Origin: Elusimicrobia bacterium GWA2_51_34
GTDB lineage: Bacteria; Elusimicrobiota; Elusimicrobia; Elusimicrobiales; UBA9959
DNA length: 64,000 nucleotides
Reading direction: 5' to 3'
NCBI GenBank assembly: GCA_001799565.1
Contig: MGTS01000014.1
Span: 1 to 64,000, forward strand
A program made the translations under genes and the position numbers. The notes under the pieces were generated by a model that saw only the letters and a list, made by a program, of their open reading frames with translations, was not told the origin of the DNA and ran no database searches. Positions 44,649 to 49,731 of this stretch are shown here, piece after piece; the first letter of the stretch is position 1; each line of letters opens with the position of its first letter.

Positions 44649-47627
44649 ATGCAAAAATACGGAATTGGCTCTTCAAAACCTCTCAGTTCGGCGGTTTTTT
44701 TTATTTTACAGATTTTTATTGCATATGTTATTCCCGCGCGCGCGCAGGAAGAAAATAAGGTGATAATCAGGGACTTTGACTGGCGCGTTTACTCCACCGA
44801 ACATTTTGACATCCATTATTACGGCGATTCAAAGCCCTGGCTTGATTACTCGGCCGCCGTGCTTGAAGCCGCATACAAGCGCGAGGCCGCGGATCTTAAC
44901 CCCGCGCTTGCAAAGCGCCTTCCTTTTTTTCTTTATGCCACGATAAACGACATGCAGCAGACCGGCATCGCCGATGTTTCCGACGGCGTGGGCGGACTTA
45001 CCGAGCCGTATAAAGACCGCTTTATGGTCTGGTCCGACGGTTCAAAGGGCTGGCTTAAAAATGTGATGGAGCATGAGCTGGCTCACGAGGTCCAGTTTTC
45101 CGTGCTTATAGACGGTTTCTGGAAATCAGCCCGGATCCTTAAAACCTTTGTCTATCCCCTGTGGATGATAGAGGGAATGGCTGAGTATGAAACAGGCGAC
45201 GCCGATATTGCCATTGAAGAAATGTACGCGCGCGACGCCGCGCTTTCGGGCTCGCTTATCCCCTTGTGGCGTCTTAATCAGTTCGGCCATTTAAAACCGC
45301 ACCAGATGACGCTCGCTTATAAGACCGGCGCGCAGGCCGTGCGTTTTCTCGCTTCTCAATACGGTTCGGAAAAGCCGCGTAAAATGCTTGAGCTTTTTAA
45401 AACCCGCTACGAGGCGACCTCGGTGCTTAAGCCGCTTATAGGAACTGATATTTTCGCATTTGACAAAAAATTCAGGGAGTACACGGAGCTGAAATACCTT
45501 GCCCAGGCCAAAAAAGAAAAACTGCAGGAACCCTCTTTTTATGGCGGGCGTCTTACGGGTCCGCAGGGAGAGATACCGGAATTTAACCTTAGCCCCGCCC
45601 CAAGCCCGGACGGTAAAAAAATGGCCTACCTCTCCACGCGTTACGGCCATCCCCCGAGCGTGATAATAAAAGACCTTGCGAGCGCGAAAGAGAAGCGCCT
45701 TAGCCCCTACAAGGCGGGCGCGGAAAATATCCCCTATGGGCGTTTTACCAAGCCCGCCAGGAACCTGGTCTGGTCTCCGGGCGGAGAATGGCTGGCTTTT
45801 TCCGGTCAGAAAAATCACCGCGAATATATTTATTTCTACCGGCTCGCGGGGGGGAAAACTACGCAATTCGGCGTGAGGGGCCTTACGGAAATACGACAAC
45901 CGTCTTTTTCCCCTGACGGCGGGAAAATAGTTTTTGTGGGCATGCGCGGCGGCTTTAACGACCTTTATCAGGTAAAAATGGAATTAGCCCAGAAAGGCGG
46001 GATGATGGAATTTAATGACCTTGAAAGGCTTACCGACAACACCCAGGATGAGGCCTCTCCCGCGTACGCCCCCGATGGTTCAGGAGTGGTTTATTCATGC
46101 GAGGTTGACGCCGCCCCTGGCCACGGGGGAGGGGTTAAAAGGGATCTTTGTTTTATCCAGGCATCCGGCGGGAAACCTCTGGACCTGCTTTCCATTTCAG
46201 GGAATATTTACGACCCAGTGTTCTCAGCGGACGGCGGGGAAATTTATTTTGTTTCCGACGCGGACCGCCGTTTTGATCTCTACAGCTACGGGCGCGCCTC
46301 CGGTAAATTGTTCCGGCTAACGCGCTCTATGGGCGGAAGCTTCAATCCGGTTCCCGGCCCGGACGGCGCTGTTTATTTCTCCTCTTTCAGGAATTCCGGC
46401 ATGAATATTTACTCTGGCCCCGCGCGCAATTTTCTTTATGAGCCGCTAGAGGCTGAAACACCAGGCAGAAGTAAAGGGGAGAAGACAGAAGACAGAAGTC
46501 AGAAGTCAGATGGCTTTCTGACCTCTGACCTCCTACCTCTGACTTCTGAATTGCCTCAACCGCTGCCTGTAGTTGGGGAACAGGCCGGTGTTTTGGGCTC
46601 CAGCGGAACTTTTAAGCCTTACAAATTCAGCGCTTCAACCGATCTGTTCTTTCCGGCTTTTCTTTTTTCTTCCCCGGGCGGACTGTTCTGGATGAACTAC
46701 TGGCAGGCTTCGGATATGCTGGGGCGGCATAACCTCAGTCTTTTTGCCAATTATAATTCCGGCGCGGATTTTTTAAGTTACCAGGCCGCCTACACGTTCG
46801 TCCGCTGGCGCATGCCGCTAAGCCTGCAAAGTTCAGGCATGACATCCAAGCACAACCTGAACGCGGACGGGTTCAGATATAATGAGCGCTTCTCCAGCCA
46901 GGCCCTGGGTACGGCGTGGCCCTTTGACCGCTATAACCGCCTGGAATTCTTCGCCCTAAGCAAAAATAAAACCGTAGATTACACCGAGCTTGACCTTCAG
47001 GAGCGTCAGCGTACCCGCGCTGTCCAGGCCGCGTATGTGCGTGACACGGTGAGCGGCCTCTATCTTACCGCGGTAAGAGGTTCGCGCTTTGAAGCTTCTT
47101 ACGCAAAGGCCGCGGACAGGTTTGGAGGAAACCTTAAATACGACGCCTACACCCTGCAGTATCTTAAGTACTTTCCGCTTTCAAAGCGGTCCGCTTTTGT
47201 TAACCGCACGGTGGGGTCGGCAAGCTATGGCCGTGATAAACGTAAGTTTGATTTTGGCGGTCTGGGCGGGGTGCGCGGATTCTCCGGCTCTTCGGCCGAA
47301 AATGAGAAGTCGGGAGTTTTAATAAATAACGCGGAATTGCGCGTACCGCTTGCCGGTAACATTGACTACTATATGTGGTATATGTTTCCCGATTTTTACT
47401 TTAAGGCCATTTACGCGAAGGTGTTTATAGATTCTGCCTACGGTTGGGACAGGGCCTCGCAGTTCCGCCGGATTGATGCTGAAGAAGTAAGAAATTCCGT
47501 GGGTGTGGGAGTGGATATACACACTTTTATTCTTCAGGCCTTCCGTCTTGTGCTAAGTTTTGATTACGCCAGACGCACCTCTGACGGCGGCGAGATCTTT
47601 TATTTTTACCTGGGGCCGATGTTCTAG
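44649..47627 (+). CDS. Fusion: MA-like metalloprotease (HELAH) + TolB/PD40 propeller + Omp85/D15 barrel
   Basis: VMEHELAHEVQF; repeated SPAPSPDGKKMAYLSTRYG/FSPDGGKIVFVG blades; C-term GGLGGVRGFSG and VFIDSAYGWD like D15. Confidence 0.8.
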   Translation: MQKYGIGSSKPLSSAVFFILQIFIAYVIPARAQEENKVIIRDFDWRVYSTEHFDIHYYGDSKPWLDYSAAVLEAAYKREAADLNPALAKRLPFFLYATINDMQQTGIADVSDGVGGLTEPYKDRFMVWSDGSKGWLKNVMEHELAHEVQFSVLIDGFWKSARILKTFVYPLWMIEGMAEYETGDADIAIEEMYARDAALSGSLIPLWRLNQFGHLKPHQMTLAYKTGAQAVRFLASQYGSEKPRKMLELFKTRYEATSVLKPLIGTDIFAFDKKFREYTELKYLAQAKKEKLQEPSFYGGRLTGPQGEIPEFNLSPAPSPDGKKMAYLSTRYGHPPSVIIKDLASAKEKRLSPYKAGAENIPYGRFTKPARNLVWSPGGEWLAFSGQKNHREYIYFYRLAGGKTTQFGVRGLTEIRQPSFSPDGGKIVFVGMRGGFNDLYQVKMELAQKGGMMEFNDLERLTDNTQDEASPAYAPDGSGVVYSCEVDAAPGHGGGVKRDLCFIQASGGKPLDLLSISGNIYDPVFSADGGEIYFVSDADRRFDLYSYGRASGKLFRLTRSMGGSFNPVPGPDGAVYFSSFRNSGMNIYSGPARNFLYEPLEAETPGRSKGEKTEDRSQKSDGFLTSDLLPLTSELPQPLPVVGEQAGVLGSSGTFKPYKFSASTDLFFPAFLFSSPGGLFWMNYWQASDMLGRHNLSLFANYNSGADFLSYQAAYTFVRWRMPLSLQSSGMTSKHNLNADGFRYNERFSSQALGTAWPFDRYNRLEFFALSKNKTVDYTELDLQERQRTRAVQAAYVRDTVSGLYLTAVRGSRFEASYAKAADRFGGNLKYDAYTLQYLKYFPLSKRSAFVNRTVGSASYGRDKRKFDFGGLGGVRGFSGSSAENEKSGVLINNAELRVPLAGNIDYYMWYMFPDFYFKAIYAKVFIDSAYGWDRASQFRRIDAEEVRNSVGVGVDIHTFILQAFRLVLSFDYARRTSDGGEIFYFYLGPMF
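46480..46550. repeat. Heptamer-arm hairpin, cagaagt family, inside coding sequence
   Basis: gaagacagaagacagaagtcagaagtcaga / tctgacctctgacctcctacctctgacttctg. Confidence 0.92.
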
Positions 47628-47784: not shown

Positions 47785-48108
47785 ATGTCCCGAAAGAATA
47801 AAAAAAGCAACGGCACTATGCCGGGAAAAGGAGGCAAAGCGTTTCCGGAAAAGATTATTGCCTCTTCCGGGGGGGGGATTAGCAAAAAAGGCGGCTATGT
47901 GCTGGTTTTGGCGGCTATTGTTATAGTTGCCGGCTATATTTTCCTTTCCAAGGCCGCCCCCGACGGTCGGGATGCCTGGTCAAATCTGGCCGCTGTACTG
48001 TTAATTCTGGGTTATCTGCTTATCCCGGTTGGTATAATGGTCCGGGGGGCTCCCGCACAGGCAGCGGACAAGGCCGGTGCCGCCCCTAAATCTTCTACTC
48101 AGCCTTAA
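47785..48108 (+). CDS. Small two-TM hypothetical protein
   Basis: MSRKNKKSNG... with two hydrophobic segments; upstream ORF extension is repeat. Confidence 0.6.
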   Translation: MSRKNKKSNGTMPGKGGKAFPEKIIASSGGGISKKGGYVLVLAAIVIVAGYIFLSKAAPDGRDAWSNLAAVLLILGYLLIPVGIMVRGAPAQAADKAGAAPKSSTQP

Positions 48109-48206: not shown

Positions 48207-48743
48207 CTTTAAATGGTTTTTTGCTTTCCTTATATATACCATCCAAAAACTAGTCCGCAACCGGCCGGCTTAAATATCCGCTTTCCTGGTGTTTTTTGTT
48301 TCGGGGTAAATTGCTTTTCCGGCTCCGCGGTCAGGCCCGGGAGTTCTGGAATAGAGCATGCAGCTCTTTGTGGTGTTTTTATAAAAGTTGTTTTTGCCAT
48401 TGTTTCATGTTCTTTCCCTCCCCTGCCTTTCATGGTATTTTTGAAAACGGCTCTAACCGCCAGGTCCCGGCATCCGGTTTAGGTGGATTTTGCGTCTTCC
48501 TACCCCCCTGCTTTTGATGGTGTTTTCAGAAACCGGCTGTTTTGGCCGTTTTTTCAGGCTCGCGGATCGGGGGGGAGGAGCCAGTGGATAGTGGTCAGTG
48601 GCGAGTGGCCAGGCCGGATAGGTGTTTGAACTTAGCGTTTCACGGTGTTTTAGCCTGGCGGTGGTAAAGTGTGAAAGTTGTCTGTTCCCCGGATTTTAGT
48701 GCGGGGGTCCCTTCCTGGCCTTTCATGGTGTTTTTAAAAATAG
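48207..48743. repeat. Degenerate dispersed array of tttcaTGGTGttttt (about 7 copies)
   Basis: Core motif near 48213, 48287, 48371, 48433, 48518, 48643 and 48726. Confidence 0.65.
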
Positions 48744-48981
48744 ATTTTTGCGTATTTAAACCGCCTCCGGCAACCCTGAATTTTACAAATTCTGGCCAAA
48801 AAATAATTTTCCAAAAAATAAAAATTCGAATTCAGCCAAAATCGGCGCTTATCGCGACTGCTAATAATAAAAAACTAAAAATAGTATTAGATTTTTTTAA
48901 ATAATCATTGAAATATATAGCTTACCTCAAAAATACTGTTGGTATTTATAGGTAAGTGGCGGGGAAACCTCTAGTGCCACA

Positions 48982-49009
48982 AGTTAACATAATATATCTT
49001 ATCGTAAGT
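48982..49009 (-). other. dif: Putative dif site (XerC/XerD recombination site)
   Basis: Minus strand ACTTACGATAA-GATATA-TTATGTTAACT: 11+6+11 layout; 23/28 to recalled B. subtilis dif, 19/28 to E. coli dif; at the convergent gene-orientation switch. Confidence 0.82.
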
Positions 49010-49224
49010 TGTATCAATAAAGCGGGAGCGTTGGCTTATCAAAGGCTTTTGGGTTATTCTCGCTGTGGTTTGCCGGCGAGCGCCGGGTTGACGGCCTGGT
49101 TTTTGGTTGTCTGCGTAAGATTGCCGGATTTTTTGTATGGTTTGGGTGAGTCGCACTGTAATATCGCCGCTTATGCCGTGGTCTCTTCACTATTCACTGT
49201 CCACTCGCCATCGTCCGCTGGCCG

Positions 49225-49731
49225 CTACTGATTGCCAGCCAATCTTCTGGCTGTGAACCAGGCCGCTTCAATGCCGGAGTCTGTAATGGCATAGGCGCAG
49301 TTTCTTTTGGCCCCGGAAGCGTTTATCCTGCCGGCTTTAACCTCTGCGGCCAGCAGCCGGTCAAGGCGCGCCGGGGCGTAGCCGGAGGCTTTTACGGCTT
49401 TTGACAGCGTTATCGCGCTGATCTCCTGCCTTCCTTCCCGGATTTTTGAGGCCGCCAGGAGCACTAACGCGGCTTCACGCGCGGTCATTCCCGGCGATTT
49501 GATCTTAAGGATAGTCAGATCATTCTTTTTCACTATTACCCTGTCCCAGAAAACAGCGCTTTGTTCCGCTTCGCTTTTTGGCGTGTTTGTGACGGCGCCC
49601 GGTGTGTCTTTTCTGCCGGGTTCAAATGCTTTTAGAAAGCTGGTTTTTTCGGTCAATATGAATTCCGCCGGCCCTTCGGCCTCAAATTCGGCTCCCGACG
49701 GGTGTTTCAGCCTGAGTTTAAAGTTAGTCAT
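49225..49731 (-). CDS. Hypothetical protein, possible C-terminal winged-helix domain
   Basis: 168-aa ORF; ASGYAPARLDRLLAAEVKAGRINASGAKRNCAYAITDSG resembles wHTH. Confidence 0.6.
   Translation of the reverse strand: MTNFKLRLKHPSGAEFEAEGPAEFILTEKTSFLKAFEPGRKDTPGAVTNTPKSEAEQSAVFWDRVIVKKNDLTILKIKSPGMTAREAALVLLAASKIREGRQEISAITLSKAVKASGYAPARLDRLLAAEVKAGRINASGAKRNCAYAITDSGIEAAWFTARRLAGNQ

Follow-up and report, generated by a model that had tools for sequence, protein, structure and literature searches.

The chromosomal dif site is usually viewed as a bare 28-bp sequence under FtsK control. Among plasmids, the Xer sites cer and psi carry accessory sequences of about 180 bp (PepA, ArgR/ArcA; PMC5357621). 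The core site considered here is not new, since a prediction of dif in Elusimicrobia was published by Kono et al. (2011; PMC3025954), who used profiles of Firmicutes and Chlamydiae. The portion of that paper drawn on here deals with the 28 bp alone, and leaves a flanking module, an array and a linked gene unmentioned. In this work we analyzed a dif site and its surroundings in the first 64,000 nucleotides of contig MGTS01000014.1 (hereafter, the window) from Elusimicrobia bacterium GWA2_51_34, a member of the Elusimicrobiales whose genome assembly (GCA_001799565.1) comprises 2.63 Mb in 43 contigs and is 97.8% complete; the contig itself is 173 kb long. As read from the sequence, the locus is composite and has the order winged-helix gene, dif, a module of ~120 bp, and an array of phased boxes on the same strand. 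Its conserved spacing, its confinement to a single strand, its helical phasing and its gene linkage all emerge from comparison across families. These surroundings look new, and in the open-access literature we found nothing similar in the way of accessory DNA at a chromosomal dif.

The dif site and its conservation

The core site lies on the minus strand at 48982–49009 and has the 28-bp sequence ACTTACGATAAGATATATTATGTTAACT, with the XerC arm at 48999–49009, the center at 48993–48998 and the XerD arm at 48982–48992. A preliminary description of the window had claimed this 11-6-11 XerC/XerD layout, and the sequence bears it out. Using reference dif sequences as printed in PMC3025954, we recomputed the identities to Bacillus subtilis dif (23/28) and to E. 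coli dif (19/28), as well as the mutual inversion of the arms (8/11), and obtained exactly the values first given. The level expected by chance was gauged with 60 Markov-random 64-kb windows, whose best match to B. subtilis dif was 20/28, versus 23/28 for the actual site. The match to E. coli dif, taken on its own, is at chance level, as random windows likewise reach 19. The site was also said to be non-coding, and it is: the flanking open reading frames (ORFs) end at 48108 (plus strand) and 49225 (minus strand), and dif sits in a 1.1-kb intergenic gap between convergent genes.

The site occurs once in the whole 2.63-Mb genome, and no better dif match, which would have told against the assignment, was found elsewhere in it. 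A match is carried by 100 of the 121 genomes of the order, mostly one each, and matches are also present in other families. Within the family the dif sequence varies by 0–3 bases, and the XerC-side flanks do not align. The named records with an identical or one-base-variant site are nearly all metagenome-assembled genomes of Elusimicrobia. The single copy, the conservation in relatives and the presence of genes for XerC/XerD-type recombinases and FtsK all support the assignment. Thus, on grounds of anatomy and conservation, we regard it as nearly certain that the 28-mer is the chromosomal dif of this Elusimicrobiales bacterium. Extra dif-like pairs in some relatives could suggest instead an attachment site of an Xer-using mobile element, or else a chance match. 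Both are exceedingly improbable: the site is single in each genome, is retained throughout the order and has a fixed neighbor gene, chance is excluded, and no mobile-element genes were identified among the neighbors tested.

The corresponding recombination machinery is encoded in the genome. There are two full-length Xer recombinases, one with XerD as its best model (289 bits) and one with XerC (306 bits), both scores falling short of the strict equivalog cut-offs (330 and 335). The XerD-type gene adjoins recA and the XerC-type gene adjoins topA, these neighbors having been identified by reading only. One FtsK is encoded, with recognizable alpha and motor domains.

In the comparisons that follow, f1, f2, f3 and so on are labels for the families compared, L numbers denote loci and G numbers denote genomes. 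Two gut genomes of f2 contain inverted dif-like pairs about 490 bp apart, at L189 (G100:C90:26576-27096) and L188 (G108:C2:2617-3145). Between the two L189 sites lies an ORF whose product looks like an XRE-type helix-turn-helix protein, and both pairs resemble Xer-flanked modules.

A conserved module on the XerD side

Flanking sequences were compared between 41 f1 sites and 36 f2 sites, and identity was assessed against shuffled sequence. The f1–f2 identity exceeds that of shuffled sequence solely at +58 to +152 on the XerD side (by +0.04 to +0.11); the excess is about zero on the XerC side past 50 bp, and likewise on the XerD side past +152. In the window, the resulting module occupies 48857–48981 (minus strand), with the conserved block at 48857–48951; its distance from dif is fixed. 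The module is ~120 bp long and usually AT-rich, its GC content dropping to ~0.20 in f1 and ~0.09 in f2. Simple A-tracts phased at 10 bp were considered as an explanation and rejected, the periodicity being found in f2 only and not in f1.

The module closes with an end motif, T[AG]GCA[CG]TC, which in the window reads TTAGCAGTC (48856–48864, minus strand) and lies ~119 nt past the XerD arm. The RGCA of this motif starts 118–123 nt past the arm in 39 of 41 f1 loci and 25 of 36 f2 loci, where roughly 3% and 1%, respectively, would be expected by chance. More distant families that have the motif show it at 119–122, except f13 and f15, where it is at 131–132, about one helical turn farther; our scan of the more distant families did not detect it in f19 and a few other loci. 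In f7 and f8, it is found by pattern at 118–120 in 16 of 17 loci, including modules that are not AT-rich, and the seventeenth locus reads TTAGCAATC at this position.

Could the conserved flank be a transcribed element (a small RNA or a promoter or terminator region) whose position next to dif is coincidental? It does lie in a convergent intergenic gap, and ends such as TATAATTAGCA look like a -10 box in some genomes. However, the module matches no Rfam family and yields no consensus RNA structure, the conserved sequence keeps a set spacing to dif, and the boxes described below are phased at the DNA helical repeat. We therefore consider a transcribed element very unlikely.

Two further motifs were noted close to the arms. 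In f2 loci (e.g., L086 and L088), a conserved GGGGG..TATTTGTC lies ~20–26 bp ahead of the XerC arm, and in f1 a CCCC is found ~7 or 15–18 nt past the XerD arm, the two positions being roughly one helical turn apart.

A phased array of boxes on one strand

Beyond the module, and on the same strand as dif, is an array of boxes with the consensus AAAA[TC]ACCAT[GC]AAA, the first of which is usually found at +275 to +288 from dif (~276 bp). The window has seven boxes in 48209–48734, versus 0.27 expected. All are on the minus strand, namely box 1, AAAACACCATGAAA (48721–48734); box 2, AAAACACCGTGAAA (48638–48651); box 3, AAAACACCATCAAA (48513–48526); box 4, AAAATACCATGAAA (48428–48441); box 5, AAAACACCACAAAG (48366–48379); box 6, AAAACACCAGGAAA (48282–48295); and box 7, which is weak, AAAAAACCATTTAA (48209–48222). 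Their gaps of 83, 125, 85, 62, 84 and 73 bp correspond to 7.9, 12.0, 8.1, 5.9, 8.0 and 7.0 turns (R = 0.91). Genome-wide, 3 of the 6 exact matches to the box, and 5 of the 16 matches with at most one mismatch, fall in this array.

The same organization is seen across the f1 loci, which together hold 186 boxes at +200 to +900. In the two main bins of the +250 to +750 interval, 88 and 87 boxes are in the forward orientation, versus 1 and 3 in reverse. After near-identical pairs were collapsed, 92 distinct gaps remained, clustering near 52, 63, 73, 84, 94, 104, 136, 146 and 157 bp. These gaps are phased at 10.40 bp, with a Rayleigh R of 0.67; the highest value among 5000 jittered controls was 0.32. 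The phasing was replicated in the f7/f8 set, which had played no part in building the box motif (R = 0.57, with the peak at 10.5 bp). Boxes are also present in f3, f5, f9, f13, f14, f18 and one f2 genus; our survey across families found none in most f2 gut genomes or in f12. Many f1 genomes have extra boxes 40–65 bp ahead of the XerC arm.

Orientation and distribution led us to reject three familiar functions for these boxes. They are polar, non-palindromic and located at the probable terminus, as would be the Ter-like sites of a replication fork trap adjoining dif. A trap, however, needs sites in opposite orientations, whereas the boxes keep a single orientation to the left and right of dif; moreover, fork arrest does not need helical phasing, and a fork trap thus seems most improbable. 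Directional motifs near dif in a genome that encodes FtsK also call to mind guide sequences of the type of FtsK-orienting polar sequences (KOPS). KOPS, though, face dif from both sides along the whole chromosome arm, and the boxes are local (within ~800 bp) rather than distributed over the contig, and do not change strand from one side of dif to the other, so that we give this idea slightly less credence still. Lastly, the matS sites of MatP are palindromic and dispersed over a large terminus domain, unlike the non-palindromic boxes clustered in ~520 bp.

Inverted repeats also occur in this region. A GTGGATAGTGGTCAGTGGCGAGTGGCC-type sequence is found in the window at 48579–48617, with its near reverse complement, CACTATTCACTGTCCACTCGCC, across dif at 49186–49215. 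In several f1 genera (e.g., L016, L017 and L026), a AAAAGTTGCCAACTTTT-like inverted repeat recurs at about +190 to +250 after dif, between the module and the first box.

A winged-helix gene linked to dif

On the XerC side, a gene for a protein of 168 amino acids (49225–49731, minus strand) reads toward dif. Across its relatives, strong conservation marks an N-terminal stretch, KLRxKHPSGAEFEAEGPAEFI, and the C-terminal part is a winged helix. The AlphaFold2 model has a mean predicted local distance difference test score of 82, with values above 90 across most of the C-terminal part. A Foldseek search returned many winged-helix proteins, TubR among them, none of them significant. The protein has no match in Pfam or PHROGs and no significant match among PDB sequences, and no plasmid or viral relative was found.

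The gene is present in 118 of the 250 genomes of the phylum and, among the matches listed, is single in each genome, the paired f2 entries being two stretches of one gene. Where both the gene and dif could be placed, they share a contig in 74 of 75 genomes. In each of these 74, the gene flanks dif on the XerC side and is oriented toward it; in 64 the two are no more than 1 kb apart. This linkage was then used predictively. An earlier, relaxed dif pattern had found nothing in the f7/f8 genomes; a search guided by the gene revealed a dif variant (e.g., ACTATTGATAATAAATATTATGTTACAT) beside it in 17 of 19 loci, mostly from f7/f8. Of the 17, 16 or 17 have the end motif and nearly all have forward boxes. 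From the recovery of dif in these loci we conclude that the linkage between the gene and dif is real and useful; it offers a practical route to dif, and hence to the terminus, where the core sequence has drifted.

Position relative to the terminus

The preliminary description had predicted a GC-skew switch at about 49 kb and had named its absence as a reason to reject a dif site. No such switch is seen (the skew is +0.04 to the left and +0.02 to the right), and, taken literally, this outcome is the adverse one. GC skew is weak in the host family, and it is the AT/purine skew that carries the switch. AT skew changes sign here, and over the 173-kb contig the cumulative purine excess reaches its maximum at 46144, 2.8 kb from dif; in four relatives of the family, the peak is 0.8–5.1 kb from the site. 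Because genes converge at the site, the purine/AT skew may merely mirror gene direction. As to this convergence, the ORFs of at least 100 amino acids within 15 kb are all on the plus strand to the left (12/12), as claimed; to the right, 12 of 13 are on the minus strand, where all had been said to be. On the left, convergence toward dif ends near 35 kb. In a relative assembled as a single contig (G045; 1,643,562 bp), dnaA is at 0.9 kb and dif at 917 kb, or 55.8% of the circle. Sampled GC skew in this genome stays positive as far as 758 kb, and from 817 kb onward negative values prevail; the sign thus changes ~100–160 kb before dif. Around its dif, G045 has the linked gene and the module, and no boxes.

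A proposed accessory complex at dif

We propose the following explanation. XerC and XerD, bound at 48999–49009 and 48982–48992, respectively, would cut and rejoin dif, splitting chromosome dimers at division. A sequence-specific protein would line the boxes on a single side of the helix and, jointly with the factors bound to the module, would fold the DNA next to the XerD arm into an ordered nucleoprotein complex. This complex might govern the timing of XerCD recombination or the choice of the copies that take part, serving, like the accessory sequences of plasmid cer/psi, as a filter for topology or cell-cycle stage; alternatively, it might keep the dif sites of both sister chromosomes in place where the cell divides. 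The product of the linked winged-helix gene is probably active at the composite locus and is a candidate partner.

These proposals differ in strength. That dif is combined with some accessory nucleoprotein complex is the best reading of the sequence data, and we hold it with good confidence. That the accessory role is specifically in Xer recombination is a more tentative proposition, which falls a little short of an even chance. The fullest version is that a dedicated complex, used throughout the phylum and made up of the module, the phased array and the linked winged-helix protein, controls dimer resolution or holds the terminus, and thereby supplements or partly replaces FtsK-gamma control of the E. 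coli type; here we see the case as evenly poised.

Several points weigh against this explanation. E. coli-type dif requires no accessory DNA. The box positions of related genomes share ancestry, and the gap counts are therefore not fully independent. The gamma domain of FtsK (L152:343-2649) is matched weakly (E = 0.097), and its Pfam model has no match in 9 of 9 genomes of the family. The XerD-activating domain of FtsK may be diverged here, and with a gamma domain so weakly recognizable, the XerD activation step is uncertain. Lastly, gene and module occur without boxes in most f2 gut genomes; conversely, boxes are present in f13, f14 and f18, where no winged-helix gene could be detected. We had considered the winged-helix protein as the box binder, but the presence of its gene does not track that of the boxes from one family to the next.

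The lack of co-variation also bears on a different view of the locus, in which module and array form an organizing or anchoring center, i.e., a centromere of the terminus. The divisome or a filament would then hold the terminus through the protein bound to the phased boxes, and dif would simply lie within this center. Phased repeats on one strand beside a winged-helix gene recall the layout of the TubR-tubC and ParR-parC partition sites, TubR is listed among the many weak Foldseek matches, and the locus is single-copy and probably terminal. However, the TubR match is no better than those to MarR or PadR proteins, and gene and boxes, as noted, do not co-vary. We regard an anchoring center as a serious possibility, though an unlikely one.

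For the accessory complex at dif, the analysis names the exact DNA and a candidate protein for testing. Accessory DNA of fixed length, boxes at whole turns and a linked gene for a DNA-binding protein suggest another mode of dimer-resolution control or of terminus positioning.

Comparison with known systems

The Elusimicrobial site is like the chromosomal dif of B. subtilis and E. coli in its 11-6-11 core, its single copy, its probable position near the terminus and the presence of genes for XerC/XerD and FtsK. It is unlike them in its surroundings, which comprise a conserved module, a phased array and a linked winged-helix gene. The comparison outside the phylum was with E. coli dif, which has neither module nor boxes. 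In XerS/difSL and XerH/difH, as here, a site at the terminus is linked to a gene of the system; there, however, the linked gene is the recombinase, whereas here it encodes a winged-helix protein and the Xer genes are elsewhere. TubR-tubC and ParR-parC share with this locus direct repeats in one orientation and a nearby winged-helix gene; the Elusimicrobial boxes differ in being 5–20 turns apart, and the locus in being chromosomal and single-copy; nor was a filament gene identified, although no search was aimed at one. As in plasmid cer/psi, a core site adjoins conserved DNA that would build a nucleoprotein complex. The accessory DNA of cer is on the XerC side; here, the site is chromosomal, the motifs are different, and the conserved DNA, comprising module and array, is mainly on the XerD side.
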